Positions 36,608-45,072 of a stretch of 64,000 nt of DNA are shown here, piece by piece (within the stretch, counting starts at the first letter, position 1; every line of letters starts with the position of its first letter). Below the pieces are notes generated by a model, which was not told the DNA's origin, made no database searches, and saw only the letters and a list, made by a program, of their open reading frames with translations. A program made the translations under genes and the position numbers. Source of the stretch: Marivirga arenosa (GTDB taxonomy: Bacteria; Bacteroidota; Bacteroidia; Cytophagales; Cyclobacteriaceae); assembly GCF_030503895.2 (NCBI RefSeq), contig NZ_CP129970.2:2217001-2281000 (forward strand), read 5' to 3'.

Positions 36608-36640
36608 AGCTTTTCCAAAGTTTAGAACTTTGGAAAAGTT
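36608..36640. repeat. REP-like double palindrome at the left border of the CRISPR locus
   Basis: Two 15-nt units in opposite orientation, AGCTTTTCCAAAGTT and AACTTTGGAAAAGTT, separated by TAG. Each unit is itself a 6-bp inverted repeat around TCC or GGA. The same 33-nt arrangement, also with a TAG spacer, recurs at the right border (45035-45067) with 30 of 33 bases identical. Confidence 0.8.
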
Positions 36641-36747
36641 GTATTAGTGCAAGGAAGCTAAAAATAGATTACATATTGAACGGTAATAGAATAGTATTTA
36701 TCGAAAAAGTATAATTTTTAAGGAGAATATTTGTATTATGATGTGTG

Positions 36748-36835
36748 GAAAGGAAAATCCCACGGAGTACGCAGGATTTAGAATTTCTTCGGCTTATAGC
36801 CTTGTTGTGAATTGTCTTTCGAATTGTAAATGTAA
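36748..36835 (-). ncRNA. tracrRNA of the type II-C system
   Basis: The anti-repeat lies at 36804-36828. Read on the minus strand it is complementary to the 5' half of the crRNA repeat: 11 continuous pairs (GTTGTGAATTG), a one-base bulge, 8 pairs (CTTTCGAA), a second bulge and further pairs. Downstream on the minus strand come a GGCT-ATA-AGCC nexus-like hairpin (36791-36801) and a hairpin with AAATCC/GGATTT arms (36755-36779), followed by a T-rich stretch that would terminate it. It is divergent from cas9, whose ATG is at 36850. End points are estimates. Confidence 0.85.
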
Positions 36836-36849
36836 TAAAATATAATTAA

Positions 36850-39800
36850 ATGGAAAATGTTTTAGGAGTTGATTTAGGTACTAATTCAATTGGGTTAACA
36901 TTAAGAGAAGGTAATACATTCCCATGGTACGGTGTTAATACATTTAAAAAGGGTGTTGGAGAAGGGAAGTCTGGTGAATTCTCATTTGCTGCTGAAAGGA
37001 CCAAACATCGTTCTTCCCGAAGATTATATAACGCAAGAAGATACCGGAAATGGGAAACATTAAAAGCATTAATTGAAAATGGATATTGTCCTTTGCATAT
37101 TGCAAATCTAAATAAGTGGAAAAAATACAAAAAAGGTATCGGTCGGGTTTTCCCTATAGATGATAAAGCTTTTCAGCAATGGATTAAATTGGATTTTAAT
37201 GGTGACGGTGTTCCTGATTTTGCAAGTCCATACCAACTTAGAAAATTGTTGATTACTGAGAAACTCGATTTATCAATCCAAGAAAACAGATATAAAATTG
37301 GTAGAGCCTTATATCATATAGCTCAAAGAAGAGGATTTAAAAGTAGTAGAAAACAGGGAGCAAATGAAAAAACTGCTGTTTACAAAGGTAGTAATGAGAC
37401 AAAAACTATTGGGCATAATGATTATGAGAATCTAATTATTGAATATGGAAGTTTAGGGGCAGCACTCGCACATATAGAAGATAAGGGTATTAGAATAAGA
37501 AACCGTTATACATTAAGGTCAGATTACAAAAATGAAGTTGAGAAAATATTAGATTTTCAAGATGTAAAGGATAATAATTTCAAAGATAAATTGCTTCTTG
37601 AAACTTCAAATGGCTCAATCTTTTATCAACGTCCGTTACGTTCTCAAAAAGGATTGATTGGTAAATGTACGCTTGAATCCAATAAATCAAGATGCCCTAT
37701 AAGCCATCCGAAGTTTGAGGAATATCGAGCATGGTCATTTATAAATAATATCAAATATCGATCTGAAAAAGACGCTTCCTTTGAACCCATTCCTTTGGAA
37801 TTAAAAGAAAAACTATACAATGAAAAGTTTTTCTTCAAGAGTAAAAGAGAGTTTGATTTTAGCGAAATACGGAAATTTATAAAAGGCAATGGAGGAAATA
37901 ATTGGGAATTGAATTACAGCAGGAAAATGGATAAGGTGTCCGTTTCAAGTTGTTTTGTTTCCGCAAGATTAAAATCGTTATTTGGAGAAAGTTGGAAAAT
38001 TTTCAAGATTAATACTACCAAAAAAAGAACTAATAGAAAAACTGGAAAAGAGCATAATGTAGTAGTTGATGTTAATGATATCTGGCATGTACTCTTTTCA
38101 TATGAAGATGAAGAGATATTTGAGGAGTATTTGATAAAAACACTCGGATTGGAAGAAGATCAAGTCAATGAACTAAAAACACTCTTTAGTAATTTCCCTA
38201 TAGGTTATGCCAATTTGAGCTTAAAAGCTATCAACAATATTTTACCGTTTTTGCGAGAAGGGATGGTTTATTCAGATGCTGTGATTTTAGCAAAAATCCC
38301 CGAAATTATTGGTAAAGAACTGTTTGAAGCAAATAAAGAAGTCATTTTCAAGGCAATTAAAGATGAGATTAAGGAAAACAGGAACCAAAAGGAAATCATC
38401 AGAATTGCCAATAACTTAATTTTTAAATATTATGCGTTAGATTACCAAGATAGGTTTGCGTGTAAAGATACGTCTTACAAGTTAGTTGAATCAGATTTGA
38501 AAGATGTTGAGAAAGCGGCAAAAGAGCACTTTGGAGAGAAATCCTGGGAGAAATTAAATGAAGGGTTTAGGCAACAAATCCTATTTAAAGTAACCGAAAA
38601 ATATCAAGAATTCTTTGCTTCCTCAAAAAGAGAGCATTTTAAATCACCCCATTTAATTAATCAAATAAAGCAGTTTTTGGATGATAATTTCGAAGTGAGA
38701 GAAAACATGCTGGATAAAATTTATCATCCTTCTCAAATTGATATTTATCCAAAAAAAGAAGGGCAACAGTTTTTGTTAAGTCCAAAAACTGCAGCATTTA
38801 AAAATCCGATGGCTTATAAAACACTCTACAAATTACGGGATGTGATCAATTATTTGATTGAAACCAATAGGATTGATGAAGAAACCCGTATTGTGGTTGA
38901 GATAGCAAGAGATGGTAAGAATAGTTTGGACTATAGTAACAAACGTTGGGCTATTGAAACATATCAACGAAATCGTGAAGTCGAGAATAGAGAATTTGCC
39001 AATGCTATATCTGAATTGATAAAAGATCCAGATTTTTCAGGACAAGCAAACCCAGAAAGTGTTAAAGATAAAGAAAAGATCAGACTATGGACAGAACAAA
39101 TCGAAAATTCCAAAGAGGTTTCTAAATTAGTTAATGCTTCAAAAAATGATGTTCAGAAATACAGGCTTTGGAAAGAACAGAATGGCATCTGTATTTATAC
39201 AGGAAAGGTAATTAAACTGACTGATTTGTTCGATGTCAATAAGATTGATTTTGAACATACTATTCCAAGAAGTAAATCATTTGACAATTCATTAGCGAAT
39301 AAGACGGTTTGTTTTGCGCATTATAATAGAAGTATTAAGAAAAATCAAATACCAACTGAACTACCTAATTATGAGACTGAATCACATGGTTTCTCTCCTA
39401 TAACGGCTAGATTGAAAGAATGGGAAAAGAAAGTCGATGATTTATATTTTCAAATTGATTTTTGGAAAGCGAAGTCTAAAAAAGCTATGGTTAAGGATGA
39501 AAAGGATTATGCCATTCGCCAAAGACATTTAAGGCAAATGGATTATGAATACTGGAAAAATAAATTAGATAGATTCACACGTAAGGAAATTCCTCGAGGG
39601 TTTGTAAATAGCCAACTTATAGATACGCAAATTATATCTAAATATGCTTTCCATTATTTAAAAACAGTTTTCAATAAAGTGGATATAATAAATGGTAGCA
39701 GTACTGCACAGTTTAGAAAGATTTATGAAGTTGAATCTAAAGAAGTATCCAAAAATAGAGGAAAACATCATCACCATGCAATTGATGCTGCGGTTTTGAC

Positions 39801-41025
39801 TTTGATTCCATCAGCGAGAAAACGTGAAGAAATTTTGAAAAGGGCTTATGAATTTGAAGAAGAATACAGAGGGAAACAATACCATGAAAAGCCATTTTCT
39901 ACATTTAAATACTCGATGATTGAAGAAATAAAACAAAATATATTAATTAATAATATTGCTGAAAAGGACCAAACATTAACTCCTGCTAGAAAAAAGGTTA
40001 GGAAAAGAGGAAAAGTGGTTTGGTTAAAGGATAAAAATGGGGAATTATTACTTGATATAAATGGTAATAAAAAGCCTAAAATAGCTCAGGGAGATTCCAT
40101 AAGAGGAGAATTGCACCAACAAACTTATTATGGGAAAATAAAAATAGCGGCTAAAAATGAAAATGGTAGTTTAAAAAGAGATGTCGATGGGGATATTCTA
40201 TATAACCAAGTCGAAGGAAAGGATGAAATAAGAATGGTTCTTAGAATTGATGTCAATGATAGCAAATTCAACTTAGATAATGTTGTAGATGAAAATCTTA
40301 AAAATCACCTTAAAAATCAAATTAGCAATAAAGTGAAAATTAATGAATTAACTGATTTTCAAGGCAATAAAGTTAGACACGTCAGATGTTGGGTTAAATC
40401 AGGAAGAGGATTGATGAATCCAAATAATGTTACAGTAGTAAAAGAGCAAGTGTATAAATCAAATAAAGATTATAAGAGCTTTATTTATTCAGACTCTGGA
40501 GAGAATTATTTGTTTGGCTTATATGAAAATGATAAAGGAAGAGAGATTAAATCAATAAATAAGTTTGAGGCTGCTGAATATATTGAAAGAATAGGAAAAC
40601 CTGACCATAAAGGAGATTTATTCAAACAAAAAGAACCTTTGTTTATAAAAAAAGAAGAAGCCCAATTGATACATATTTTTGAAGTAGGGCAAAAGGTGAT
40701 TTTTTATAAGAACATAGAGGAATTAAAGGATATCGAGAATGATAATTTTGAAATCTCAAAAAGACTCTATTTCATTAAAAGATTACATCAAGCTTCGGTT
40801 GGGAATATGCTTTTTCAACATCATTTAGAATCAAGAAGTGATGATGAACTCACCAAGGCTTTTCCTAAAGAAGAATTTAAATCAGCAGGAAAAGATGGTT
40901 TTTCAAAATATCAAGATGATTTTATTGCTCCTAGAATATTATTTAAGCCAACAAAACCAATGTTTATTATTGAAGGAAAAGATTTCGAAATGAAATTAGA
41001 TGGAAGTATTCAGTATAAGTATTAA
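36850..41025 (+). CDS. cas9: Type II-C CRISPR endonuclease Cas9
   Basis: RNA-guided dual-nuclease effector of 1391 residues, in the size range of Bacteroidota II-C Cas9 proteins. RuvC-I is VLGVDLGTNSIGLTL (Asp8). The arginine-rich bridge helix reads KHRSSRRLYNARRYRKWE. RuvC-II is RIVVEIARD (Glu684). The HNH centre is IDFEHTIPRSKSFDNSLANK (His803). RuvC-III is HHHHAIDAAVLT (His976, Asp979). All catalytic residues appear intact, so the nuclease should be active. The REC lobe lies between about residues 70 and 660, and the PAM-interacting region occupies the last 300 residues. ATG start; it leads cas9-RAYT-cas1-cas2. There is no csn2 or cas4, which defines subtype II-C. Confidence 0.97.
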   Translation: MENVLGVDLGTNSIGLTLREGNTFPWYGVNTFKKGVGEGKSGEFSFAAERTKHRSSRRLYNARRYRKWETLKALIENGYCPLHIANLNKWKKYKKGIGRVFPIDDKAFQQWIKLDFNGDGVPDFASPYQLRKLLITEKLDLSIQENRYKIGRALYHIAQRRGFKSSRKQGANEKTAVYKGSNETKTIGHNDYENLIIEYGSLGAALAHIEDKGIRIRNRYTLRSDYKNEVEKILDFQDVKDNNFKDKLLLETSNGSIFYQRPLRSQKGLIGKCTLESNKSRCPISHPKFEEYRAWSFINNIKYRSEKDASFEPIPLELKEKLYNEKFFFKSKREFDFSEIRKFIKGNGGNNWELNYSRKMDKVSVSSCFVSARLKSLFGESWKIFKINTTKKRTNRKTGKEHNVVVDVNDIWHVLFSYEDEEIFEEYLIKTLGLEEDQVNELKTLFSNFPIGYANLSLKAINNILPFLREGMVYSDAVILAKIPEIIGKELFEANKEVIFKAIKDEIKENRNQKEIIRIANNLIFKYYALDYQDRFACKDTSYKLVESDLKDVEKAAKEHFGEKSWEKLNEGFRQQILFKVTEKYQEFFASSKREHFKSPHLINQIKQFLDDNFEVRENMLDKIYHPSQIDIYPKKEGQQFLLSPKTAAFKNPMAYKTLYKLRDVINYLIETNRIDEETRIVVEIARDGKNSLDYSNKRWAIETYQRNREVENREFANAISELIKDPDFSGQANPESVKDKEKIRLWTEQIENSKEVSKLVNASKNDVQKYRLWKEQNGICIYTGKVIKLTDLFDVNKIDFEHTIPRSKSFDNSLANKTVCFAHYNRSIKKNQIPTELPNYETESHGFSPITARLKEWEKKVDDLYFQIDFWKAKSKKAMVKDEKDYAIRQRHLRQMDYEYWKNKLDRFTRKEIPRGFVNSQLIDTQIISKYAFHYLKTVFNKVDIINGSSTAQFRKIYEVESKEVSKNRGKHHHHAIDAAVLTLIPSARKREEILKRAYEFEEEYRGKQYHEKPFSTFKYSMIEEIKQNILINNIAEKDQTLTPARKKVRKRGKVVWLKDKNGELLLDINGNKKPKIAQGDSIRGELHQQTYYGKIKIAAKNENGSLKRDVDGDILYNQVEGKDEIRMVLRIDVNDSKFNLDNVVDENLKNHLKNQISNKVKINELTDFQGNKVRHVRCWVKSGRGLMNPNNVTVVKEQVYKSNKDYKSFIYSDSGENYLFGLYENDKGREIKSINKFEAAEYIERIGKPDHKGDLFKQKEPLFIKKEEAQLIHIFEVGQKVIFYKNIEELKDIENDNFEISKRLYFIKRLHQASVGNMLFQHHLESRSDDELTKAFPKEEFKSAGKDGFSKYQDDFIAPRILFKPTKPMFIIEGKDFEMKLDGSIQYKY

Positions 41026-41069
41026 TAGTGTTTAATTTTTCAAAAATTAGGTATTAAAAAAACAAGTAA

Positions 41070-41663
41070 TTGGAAACAGGACAAATTTACCATATTTACA
41101 ACCACGCAAATGGAAGTGAAAATATCTTTCGAGAGAAAGAGAATTATCGTTTCTTTTTACAACAATATAAAAAGCATTTGGAAAAGGTGGTGGATACATA
41201 TGCGTATTGCTTGATTCCCATCCATTTTCATTTTTTAGTAAAAGTTAAAAAAGCTGATGTGCTCAAAAAGAATTCAACTTTCGAAAAGTTGGATTCTTTG
41301 GATGAAGTCGAAGCAAAAGCCTCAAAGCAATTTGCAAATCTTTTTATTAGTTACACGATGGCTTTCAACAAAAAATATGATAGAAAAGGAAGCCTATTCA
41401 TGAAGAATTTTAAAAGAAAACCAATCGAATCGATTGAACAGTGGCAGGAGACCTTTTTATACATCCATATTAATCCTATAAAACATAAATTCTCTAATAA
41501 AATTGAGGATTGGAACTGGAGTAGTTGGCACGCATATAACAATATGGAGTCTAGAAGTCTATTAGCTAGACCAAAAGCTATAGGCTATTTTGATAATATA
41601 GATAACTTATTGTATTGCTCAGAAGAGAAAAGGAGAAGGATTTTAAATATGAATTTAGAATAA
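41070..41663 (+). CDS. REP-associated tyrosine transposase (RAYT, TnpA_REP family)
   Basis: A 197-residue Y1/HUH single-strand transposase of the IS200-like RAYT branch, which acts on REP palindromes. It begins ETGQIYHIYNHANGSENIF, the usual RAYT N-terminus. The metal-binding HUH motif is IPIHFHFLVKV (His52, His54), and a candidate catalytic tyrosine is in NKKYDRKGSLF (Tyr103). The end FLYIHINPIKHKFSNKIEDW is also family-typical. The start is TTG directly after an in-frame stop; no ATG fits. It lies 44 nt after cas9 and 67 nt before cas1 on the same strand, interrupting the usual cas operon. REP-like palindromes surround it. It appears intact. Confidence 0.88.
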   Translation: METGQIYHIYNHANGSENIFREKENYRFFLQQYKKHLEKVVDTYAYCLIPIHFHFLVKVKKADVLKKNSTFEKLDSLDEVEAKASKQFANLFISYTMAFNKKYDRKGSLFMKNFKRKPIESIEQWQETFLYIHINPIKHKFSNKIEDWNWSSWHAYNNMESRSLLARPKAIGYFDNIDNLLYCSEEKRRRILNMNLE

Positions 41664-41672
41664 GGGTATAAG

Positions 41673-41705
41673 AAAGTTTCCAACTTTCTTAAAGTTGGAA
41701 ACTTT
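41673..41705. repeat. Double palindrome after the RAYT gene
   Basis: Arms AAAGTTTCCAACTTT and AAAGTTGGAAACTTT with a CTT spacer. It has the same 15+3+15 architecture and TCC/GGA centres as the border elements, but the flanking six-base arms are swapped. It sits 9 nt after the RAYT stop and 25 nt before the cas1 ATG. Confidence 0.7.
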
Positions 41706-41730
41706 AGAAATTTTATAATTGACAAAAGCT

Positions 41731-42967
<1,237 letters not shown>

Positions 42968-42984
42968 ACTACCTCCATTTATAA

Positions 42985-43070
42985 AACTTTTCCAAAGTTT
43001 TTATTTCATCAAGCAAGACTGAGATACTCAAATCTTAACTGTTTTAACTTAGAACAACTTTGGAAAAGTT
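42985..43070. repeat. Expanded REP pair 1 between cas2 and the array
   Basis: AACTTTTCCAAAGTT at 42985-42999 and its inverse AACTTTGGAAAAGTT at 43056-43070 enclose 56 nt of sequence not shared with the neighbouring pairs. It starts 17 nt after the cas2 stop. Confidence 0.75.
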
Positions 43071-43103
43071 GAATAGGAAATTAAGCTCAGCTATATTATT
43101 AAA

Positions 43104-43187
43104 AACTTTTCCAAAGTTCAGTATCAATAATTGAAGAGTTTATTTCAAACTTTTACTGGAAATGGCTAAAGTAACTTTGGAAAAGTT
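43104..43187. repeat. Expanded REP pair 2
   Basis: The same inverted 15-nt units at 43104-43118 and 43173-43187 enclose a different 54-nt segment. Confidence 0.75.
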
Positions 43188-43238
43188 CATAAGCTAACTA
43201 TAGTAACTGGAATTATTTTAATATCTCCACCCTACTAA

Positions 43239-43323
43239 AACTTTTCCAAAGTATCAAGGAATCGGAATTACAGGATATGCTGATCCCTTGAAGCCTAATA
43301 GAAATTTTAACTTTGGAAAAGTT
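43239..43323. repeat. Expanded REP pair 3
   Basis: The same inverted units at 43239-43253 (last base changed) and 43309-43323 enclose a different 55-nt segment. The remaining 132 nt to the array (43324-43455) are AT-rich and hold only the hairpin described at 43426. Confidence 0.75.
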
Positions 43324-43425
43324 GCTTTTTAAAGCACTGATATCAGAACCAATAAATCCTTGCATTCTTATTAAAAACGGTAAGAATATAGCTGTTTTTT
43401 TGAATTCTAATTTCGGTCATAACAA

Positions 43426-43460
43426 ACAGGATACCAGCTTTTTAAGGCATGGTATCCTGT
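43426..43460 (-). terminator. Putative pre-crRNA terminator hairpin using the last repeat
   Basis: Perfect 11-base arms ACAGGATACCA and TGGTATCCTGT around a 13-base loop that can pair further. The second arm includes the outermost five bases (CCTGT) of the terminal repeat. In the minus-strand crRNA direction it comes right at the array end and is followed by TTTGTT. Confidence 0.5.
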
Positions 43461-45021
43461 GAATTATCTCATAAGATACAATTTCGAAAGCAATTCACAA
43501 CATTATGAAGCTGCAGCAAAAAAACGGAAAACCTGTGAATTATCTCATAAGATACAATTTCGAAAGCAATTCACAACTACAAAAAAAGTGATTTTACAGT
43601 TGAATTACCTGTGAATTATCTCATAAGATACAATTTCGAAAGCAATTCACAACATCATCATGGCAGCATCCAGTGTTGGGCTACCTGTGAATTATCTCAT
43701 AAGATACAATTTCGAAAGCAATTCACAACAAAGTGCTGTATCTTGTGTATCATTTCTTACCTGTGAATTATCTCATAAGATACAATTTCGAAAGCAATTC
43801 ACAACACAGCCTCTTTCCTTCTCTCAAGTATGTTACCTGTGAATTATCTCATAAGATACAATTTCGAAAGCAATTCACAACCCTAAAGTATTTGAACAGC
43901 ACGAAGTTCACCCTGTGAATTATCTCATAAGATACAATTTCGAAAGCAATTCACAACACAAGCCTATTTTGTTCGTAATAATTAAAACCTGTGAATTATC
44001 TCATAAGATACAATTTCGAAAGCAATTCACAACTATACAGGAAGTGATGTACCTAAGAGTTATCCTGTGAATTATCTCATAAGATACAATTTCGAAAGCA
44101 ATTCACAACAGGTTTTCAAGTTGACATGTTAACAAGTTTCCTGTGAATTATCTCATAAGATACAATTTCGAAAGCAATTCACAACCCCAACGAATGGCTT
44201 CGATTGCCATATCCACCTGTGAATTATCTCATAAGATACAATTTCGAAAGCAATTCACAACCAAAGAATCCTCAAAGATTTTTTATTATAACCTGTGAAT
44301 TATCTCATAAGATACAATTTCGAAAGCAATTCACAACAGAGCAAGTAAGCGTGCATCATGAATTCGCCCTGTGAATTATCTCATAAGATACAATTTCGAA
44401 AGCAATTCACAACCTTGAATGGCATCTAGCTCAGCATCATCTACCTGTGAATTATCTCATAAGATACAATTTCGAAAGCAATTCACAACATGGCGCATGA
44501 ACTAGGCTGGGAAGTAAGACCTGTGAATTATCTCATAAGATACAATTTCGAAAGCAATTCACAACACCATGCTAGCTAATGCCTCTCGAGAGAGACCTGT
44601 GAATTATCTCATAAGATACAATTTCGAAAGCAATTCACAACAGAAAAACTTGGCCTTTTGTTCGTTGGTTCCCTGTGAATTATCTCATAAGATACAATTT
44701 CGAAAGCAATTCACAACCCTCAAACACCAGTGGAGATCATCTACAGACCTGTGAATTATCTCATAAGATACAATTTCGAAAGCAATTCACAACTCTCTAG
44801 GCTTAAGGCTGCTGTCGTCAATACCTGTGAATTATCTCATAAGATACAATTTCGAAAGCAATTCACAACTATAAAAGTCGTGAAATCTAAAAAAGCAAAC
44901 CTGTGAATTATCTCATAAGATACAATTTCGAAAGCAATTCACAACACGGGTTTATCATCAGAGAAATTAGAAAATCCTGTGAATTATCTCATAAGATACA
45001 ATTTCGAAAGCAATTCACAAC
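43456..45021 (-). CRISPR. CRISPR array, 21 repeats and 20 spacers (type II-C)
   Basis: The 46-nt repeat (CCTGTGAATTATCTC to AAAGCAATTCACAAC on the plus strand) occurs at 43456 and every 76 nt to 44976. All 21 copies look identical and all 20 spacers are exactly 30 nt. In crRNA orientation (minus strand) the repeat begins GTTGTGAATTGC, the normal start of Bacteroidota II-C repeats, and pairs with the tracrRNA anti-repeat, so transcription runs from 45021 to 43456, antisense to cas9-cas1-cas2. The repeat ends are inverted (TGTGAATT/AATTCACA). No long leader is visible: only 57 nt separate the 45021 end from the tauE-like stop, and they contain a REP-like element. Confidence 0.98.
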
Positions 45022-45034
45022 CAGCTTACTTAAT

Positions 45035-45072
45035 AACTTTTCTAAAGTTTAGCACTTTGGAAAAGTTTTTTC
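45035..45072. repeat. REP-like double palindrome at the right border of the CRISPR locus
   Basis: AACTTTTCTAAAGTT, spacer TAG, CACTTTGGAAAAGTT (45035-45067), followed on the plus strand by more T residues. It therefore resembles a rightward intrinsic terminator as well. It is nearly identical to the left-border element at 36608-36640. Confidence 0.78.

Follow-up and report, generated by a model that had tools for sequence, protein, structure and literature searches.

CRISPR (clustered regularly interspaced short palindromic repeats) genes are accompanied by a transposase gene in Tn7-like CRISPR-associated transposons. Type II-C loci of Bacteroidota feature cas9, cas1, cas2 and an array of long repeats, in this order. 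Exchange of Cas9 has been described in II-C loci of Flavobacterium psychrophilum (PMC10309648), and a palindrome between cas2 and array in Riemerella anatipestifer (PMC5006608). Repetitive extragenic palindromes (REPs) lying inside genes for REP-associated tyrosine transposases (RAYTs) have been described for TnpA-REP subclass 2.4 (Quentin et al. 2018, PMC6006769), and the work of Bertels and Rainey (2011, PMC3116915) on REPINs (REP doublets forming hairpins) and BIMEs (bacterial interspersed mosaic elements) includes the speculation that CRISPRs may derive from REPIN-like elements. The window analyzed, i.e. the whole stretch of 64,000 nucleotides from Marivirga arenosa, hosts on the + strand a complete type II-C locus, ordered cas9, RAYT, cas1, cas2, array. 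Order of the cas genes and long repeats correspond to those of II-C loci of Bacteroidota; the RAYT gene between cas9 and cas1 and the hairpins at the module borders set it apart from them.

The RAYT and its hairpins are best explained, with moderate confidence, as a long-term resident of the II-C slot between cas9 and cas1, hairpins being breakpoints at which pieces of the locus are gained or lost. The RAYT would be a Y1 TnpA-REP-like single-strand transposase, settled in this slot for long in the host family; hairpins would mark the inside of the RAYT gene, its sides, the DNA after cas2 in some loci and, in this genus, both edges of the module. Halves of the RAYT gene, hairpin pairs and possibly the whole module may come and go at these points, the RAYT cutting and joining single-stranded hairpins, or hairpin copies recombining with each other. 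The initial annotation had suggested that REPs and their transposase colonised, or could mobilise, a module of about 8.5 kb. Genome comparisons show that a RAYT with REP-like hairpins has colonised II-C loci. From the same comparative footprints we infer that the RAYT may move the module or parts of it; mobilisation of the 8.5-kb module by the RAYT is not supported.

RAYT genes in the slot between cas9 and cas1

The RAYT gene (41070–41663, + strand), located between cas9 and cas1 as initially annotated, encodes a protein of 197 aa from a TTG start. The best Foldseek match of its predicted structure (pLDDT 94.2) is the REP-bound transposase 4er8 (E=1e-7, TMt 0.68), alike in fold and catalytic residues at 16% identity, and found also by profile search (E=7.1e-7). 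NF047646 matches the protein under the cutoff of 80 (57.4 bits, E=1.4e-15), and Pfam gives no match at 1e-3. H52, H54 and Y131, the HUH motif and the catalytic tyrosine, are kept in all 104 RAYTs compared. These measure at least 150 aa, have been drawn by similarity, and comprise 32 CRISPR-linked and 72 solitary RAYTs; three shorter ORFs (open reading frames), two CRISPR-linked and one solitary, were left out. Two further RAYT matches at E<=0.01 reside in the same genome (L011, L012), each amid its own repeated palindromic motifs, as judged by eye.

Type II cas1 genes (E<=1e-50) mark 42 loci in 196 genomes of the host family, evenly drawn from a larger group. A RAYT gene is found directly upstream of cas1 in 24 of the 42 loci; the slot is visible in 41, and carries no RAYT in 17 of these. 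One locus has a RAYT 3' of cas2 on the opposite strand; in another the contig ends within the slot, and the 471 nt present give no RAYT match. At the phylum level, 395 genomes yielded 60 cas1 matches (E<=1e-40) in 59 genomes, and a RAYT (E<=1e-30; up to 8 candidates scored per genome, hence a lower bound) lies directly upstream of at least 4 of the 60, corresponding to 3 of 4 in the host family and 1 of 56 outside it (G324). Profile scanning of 27 newly fetched cas1 loci revealed a RAYT in one, belonging to family member G057. Among the best 80 of 316 confirmed RAYT loci in named genomes, obtained in a capped search, 11 RAYTs are upstream of cas1 on the same strand (in L116 the gap measures 1.5 kb); records of Belliella, Hydrotalea, Paenimyroides, Owenweeksia, Paludibacter and Draconibacterium are among them. 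By these counts, the linkage of RAYT and cas1 is strong in the host family and sporadic elsewhere. In two RAYT-less loci, those of G173 (L183) and G014 (L186), cas9 and cas1 are separated by 1.4 and 1.9 kb, with ATPase-like genes recognized by eye. Two equally scoring RAYT copies, with starts 983 bp apart, are found at G221:C165:9570-11197.

RAYT and cas1 distances correlate in the 24 loci (Mantel r=0.67, p=0.0005); values are lower for RAYT and Cas9 (r=0.12, p=0.046) and for cas1 and Cas9 (r=0.23, p=0.011). Co-inheritance of the RAYT with the adaptation genes across the family is, on these distances, well supported.

REP-like hairpins in the locus and in its relatives

Hairpins of 33 nt, formed by 15-nt arms around a TAG loop, lie at both edges of the locus. 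The left one (36608–36640; AGCTTTTCCAAAGTT-TAG-AACTTTGGAAAAGTT) is flanked by gcvT at one side and by the putative tracrRNA (trans-activating CRISPR RNA) at the other, the right one (45035–45067; AACTTTTCTAAAGTT-TAG-CACTTTGGAAAAGTT), present also in G191 and G197, follows the array. They are identical at 30 of 33 positions, and the initial annotation rightly held them to be a matching pair: the 13-mer core is found in 8 exact copies in the window, whereas 100 first-order Markov sequences average 0.01. The genome-wide count that had been proposed as a check revealed enrichment at this site. Exact copies of the 15-mer number 8 across the 3.94 Mb of the genome; 6 lie in the CRISPR locus and 2 form the only other perfect 33-nt element (C1:2355483-2355515, between genes which by eye are GNAT-like and YdcF-like). 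With up to one mismatch, 11 of 18 matches are in the locus; with up to two, the 52 matches found are no excess over the reversed-pattern control (66). One perfect 33-nt copy is likewise carried by G191.

The bracketing hairpins are of type A (AACTTT-TCC-AAAGTT), the hairpins of the present RAYT of type B (AAAGTT-TCC-AACTTT). A type B hairpin with 15+3+15 architecture had been noticed just 3' of the RAYT gene, and is found at 41673–41705. A second one (41267–41299; 15+3+15, one arm mismatch) lies within the RAYT reading frame, and had been overlooked, as had six additional 15-nt units between cas2 and the array, starting at 42985, 43056, 43104, 43173, 43239 (one mismatch) and 43309. The six type-A 15-mers are arranged as three inverted pairs, unit 1 (42985–43070, 86 bp), unit 2 (43104–43187, 84 bp) and unit 3 (43239–43323, 85 bp). 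Their spacing is nearly equal, yet their inner sequences are unrelated (z -0.7 to -0.2), and the reading of the pairs as copies of one unit was dropped. Start-to-start distances of inverted 15-mer pairs measure 67–71 nt, that of G191 included (three pairs in the window, one in G191). Searched against a phage collection, the cas2-array interval gave no match, and a phage origin of this region was dropped. A further stem (43426–43460) overlaps the first CRISPR repeat and pairs GGATACC with GGTATCC; by eye, paired changes give GGTTACC/GGTAACC in both G191 and G197. Away from CRISPR loci, type A hairpins occur at G108:C32:76594-79578 (four copies) and G143:C7:32450-35364 (five copies), 713–731 bp apart except for one gap of 1514 bp.

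The elements are named REP-like, rather than REPs, because they mostly lack a GTAG or GTGG foot: GT[AG]G was found in 10 of 196 feet of RAYT-adjacent hairpins, versus 10 of 588 in the background. Nor is their copy number high and dispersed, six of the eight exact 15-mers being in the locus. As in REPs, hairpins flank the RAYT gene and are related to those of the RAYT gene itself.

In the window and in part of its relatives, a hairpin lies in frame inside the RAYT gene, between the HuH and Y motifs. Of the 32 CRISPR-linked RAYTs 26 have an in-gene hairpin (score >=12), of the 72 solitary ones 22, with no correction for kinship; none of 96 control windows in cas1 has one. In-gene hairpins resemble those downstream (likeness 0.79, permuted 0.59; p=0.0002, n=35) and upstream (0.77, permuted 0.61; p=0.0002, n=20) of the same RAYT. 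A RAYT remnant in L055 (nt 1–231 aligned) ends at the in-gene hairpin, and shorter 5' remnants in L046 (one) and L045 (two) end beside a hairpin. L172 hosts a different RAYT, with a single hairpin type before, inside and after the gene; its post-cas2 hairpin shares its type with the loci related to it by cas1. Remnants and L172 suggest a turnover at hairpins.

Module borders and exchange in the genus

All three filled loci of the genus (window, G191, G197) feature such a hairpin at both ends, the ends of G197 sitting on two contigs of a fragmented assembly. The comparison thus shows module borders placed at hairpins in these congeners. A gcvT match in this assembly (G197:C292:78-1184, L243) was reported as containing two stop codons. 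In G055, G116, G196 and G199, gcvT adjoins the dsbD2-like gene and the fetched stretch gave no cas match, so that four congeners lack the locus at exactly this site. Three others were left out, since gcvT was not found beside the dsbD2-like gene in the fetched stretch (G148, G170), or neither gene was matched (G198). The junction in G116 carries one degenerate hairpin, matching at 25 of 30 arm positions, a value reached by none of 5000 shuffles. Even spreading of the 33-nt element as a common terminator, and lack of any strain empty between its two copies, had been named by the initial annotation as findings which would count against it; neither was observed, because the 15-mer is concentrated here and congeners with an empty site exist.

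At the left edge and in unit 2, hairpin sequence is conserved more strongly than the DNA around it. Comparing the window and G197, the left hairpin is identical at 31 of 32 positions, the adjoining stretches at 34 of 61 on one side and 80 of 100 on the other; in unit 2 the 15-mers are identical at 30 of 30 positions, the inner part at 34 of 54.

Synonymous divergence (dS), as estimated by a simple counting method which saturates, is 0.52 for cas1 (41719–42630, + strand; TIGR03639, E=1.3e-87), 0.94 for cas2 (42620–42967, + strand; TIGR01573, E=6.7e-23) and 1.11 for the RAYT between window and G197, versus 4.4 for the dsbD2-like gene and 2.9 for ccoG. Since the divergence of cas1 and cas2 is low beside that of flanking genes, the data indicate that the two were exchanged between congeners at the gcvT/dsbD2-like site. 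Between window and G191 the dS of cas1 is 0.24, versus 0.03–0.11 for flanking genes. A tree built on flanking proteins, consulted for loss or gain at the empty sites, leaves three of five inner forks open, but pairs filled G197 with empty G199 as sisters. Taken together, these comparisons point to exchange of the module at a single site.

The window cas9 (36850–41025, + strand) encodes 1391 aa with HNH_4 and RuvC_III domain matches (NCBIfam TIGR01865, E=5.3e-112). The putative tracrRNA (36720–36835, - strand) is complementary to the array repeat, as judged by eye, its anti-repeat reading at about 36803–36830. In G191, of the same species, the segment from about 36746 to the RAYT start is replaced, tracrRNA region included, and Cas9 shares about 26% of the aligned positions with that of the window. 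The RAYT of G191 differs from that of the window at 17 sites in the first 162 nt and at 8 in the remaining 432; the in-gene hairpin lies at nt 198–230. The Cas9 of G197 falls in a third group, its best match being L051 (56% over 1184 columns). As the Cas9 of G191 and G197 each belong elsewhere, the three congeners (window, G191/L042, G197/L244+L215) present three Cas9 groups on one RAYT-cas1-cas2 side at a single site. The tracrRNA regions of G191 and G197 look alike.

The CRISPR array (43456–45021, assigned to the - strand from the anti-repeat) is made by 21 identical repeats of 46 bp and 20 spacers of 30 nt. With cas9, cas1 and cas2, it bears out by family matches and repeats the II-C locus initially annotated. 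Between gcvT and the dsbD2-like gene the RAYT is the sole further plausible ORF of at least 80 aa, no search dedicated to csn2 or cas4 having been made. Each window repeat is one base off those of G191 (19 repeats). A comparison of spacers, meant to locate the leader end, gave none in common between the two arrays (20 and 18 spacers), as would follow a wholesale replacement of the array.

Alternative explanations and known systems

Several data weigh against residence with hairpins as breakpoints. A RAYT tree with 102 rows requires 11 changes of the CRISPR-linked label, versus 26 in shuffles; the label is clustered, yet the tree topology implies several entries or exits. In the clade of close cas1 genes (n=11) RAYT and cas1 do not correlate significantly (r=0.28, p=0.19), the L172 RAYT being very different. 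Where dS was usable, nine pairs of linked RAYTs give a ratio of nonsynonymous to synonymous divergence of 0.06–0.21; a tenth pair, a distant one, gives 0.39. Solitary RAYTs are similarly constrained (0.09–0.49 in 29 pairs), and constraint is therefore no proof of a role in CRISPR. Position 51, adjoining the HUH motif, is I in the window RAYT and N in the other 103, and two CRISPR-linked RAYTs (L094, L124) read as short ORFs. In L050 no hairpin adjoins the 5' remnant of a RAYT. Post-cas2 hairpins (score >=13) mark 8 of 23 loci with a RAYT and 1 of 13 without (p=0.11), a difference which is suggestive only, in a scan that could not score 6 of the 42 loci and is blind to long-spaced pairs as those of window and G191. 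Among the family loci scanned, bracketing at both module ends was seen in this genus only. The right hairpin is just 30/33 identical between window and G197. In the empty sites of G055, G196 and G199 no matching hairpin was found, the best candidates reaching 16, 18 and 16 of 30 arm positions, as did 1912, 72 and 1095 of 5000 shuffles, respectively; the G196 match lies in flank sequence common to these sites. The bracketing hairpins are of type A and those of the RAYT itself of type B; because of this mismatch, an earlier RAYT may have laid down the former. Close-cas1 pairs with differing Cas9 are as common in loci without RAYT (7 of 11) as in those with it (57 of 82). No movement of the module was seen in the comparisons, and homologous recombination could move it equally well.

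This last point leads to the strongest competitor, a possible but doubtful one, in which RAYT and hairpins are selfish hitchhikers, the module moves by homologous recombination via flanking genes, and end hairpins are incidental insertions. Such a passenger would fit the many RAYTs that live alone (72 of the 104 in the similarity-drawn set) and the three empty sites devoid of a matching hairpin. It would also fit Cas9 exchange in loci without RAYT, exchange of II-C Cas9 by homologous recombination being on record (PMC10309648). It accounts poorly for a RAYT that occupies one slot in 24 of 42 loci, diverges along with cas1 and keeps its active site, as for a left hairpin that is almost invariant amid diverged stretches.

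We consider it unlikely that the RAYT is a working part of the locus, cutting and joining the edge and array-side hairpins so that the locus could be excised and re-inserted at a hairpin-bearing site and its parts, namely RAYT halves, Cas9-tracrRNA cassette and array-side hairpin pairs, swapped with cas1-cas2 left in place. As a specific driver of Cas9 swapping the RAYT was rejected because RAYT-less loci swap too; Mantel r of cas1 and Cas9 is 0.22 in 24 loci with RAYT and 0.39 in 15 without.

Recruitment of the RAYT to Cas1-Cas2, as a true cas-associated gene that would handle hairpin or single-stranded DNA next to the array, is improbable. Co-divergence with cas1 would agree with such an accessory adaptation factor, as would hairpins at the cas2-array junction in some loci and, by the ORF calls used, the overlap of RAYT stop and cas1 start in L173, L174, L177 and L115; slots empty of RAYT in 17 of 41 family loci, and 1 RAYT in 56 sampled cas1 matches outside the family, argue against it. 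That the palindromes are transcription terminators or hairpins of mRNA ends, scattered genome-wide as the initial annotation had allowed, is highly improbable: the right copy precedes a T run, is scored as a terminator of the + strand and is the sole one for which a simple terminator is retained as possible, left copy and cas2-array units do not score as such, a T-rich stretch follows by eye one of the eight post-cas2 hairpins scored in relatives with RAYT, hairpins reside also inside RAYT reading frames, and the 33-nt element, with one other perfect copy in the genome, is not a common terminator.

How CRISPR-Cas loci move between species with no obvious transposon is an open question. The locus lends itself to testing whether a Y1 enzyme helps to reshape CRISPR loci; alternatively, it would be a clean example of a selfish element in an immune locus.

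REPs in RAYT genes and II-C Cas9 exchange are already published; linkage of a RAYT to CRISPR was found in no paper by a full-text search, which covered neither supplements nor most subscription papers and does not establish absence from print. The word CRISPR does not occur in the main text of PMC6006769, and the CRISPR passages of PMC3116915, PMC3686654, PMC3733652, PMC3390384 and PMC8266576 report no RAYT in a cas locus. TnpA-REP subclass 2.4 shares with the window RAYT an in-frame REP between HuH and Y. It differs in that hairpins here mostly have no GT[AG]G foot, exact genome copies are few and the gene belongs to a CRISPR locus; the missing foot speaks against membership in the subclass. 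Hairpins here are also AT-rich and lack the GTAG foot, in contrast to that of the REP-bound RAYT 4er8 (biochemistry of TnpA-REP in PMC8266576). REPINs and BIMEs are similarly inverted REP pairs at short distance beside a RAYT-linked system (PMC3116915), but the three pairs in the window have unrelated inner sequences and reside at one locus. CRISPR-associated transposons such as CasMu (PMC10910872) have in common with the window a transposase gene beside CRISPR genes. Their enzymes are of the DDE type and their effector is nuclease-dead, neither of which is found in the window locus, where the transposase is a Y1 HUH enzyme and Cas9 keeps, at the domain level, both its HNH_4 and RuvC_III matches.

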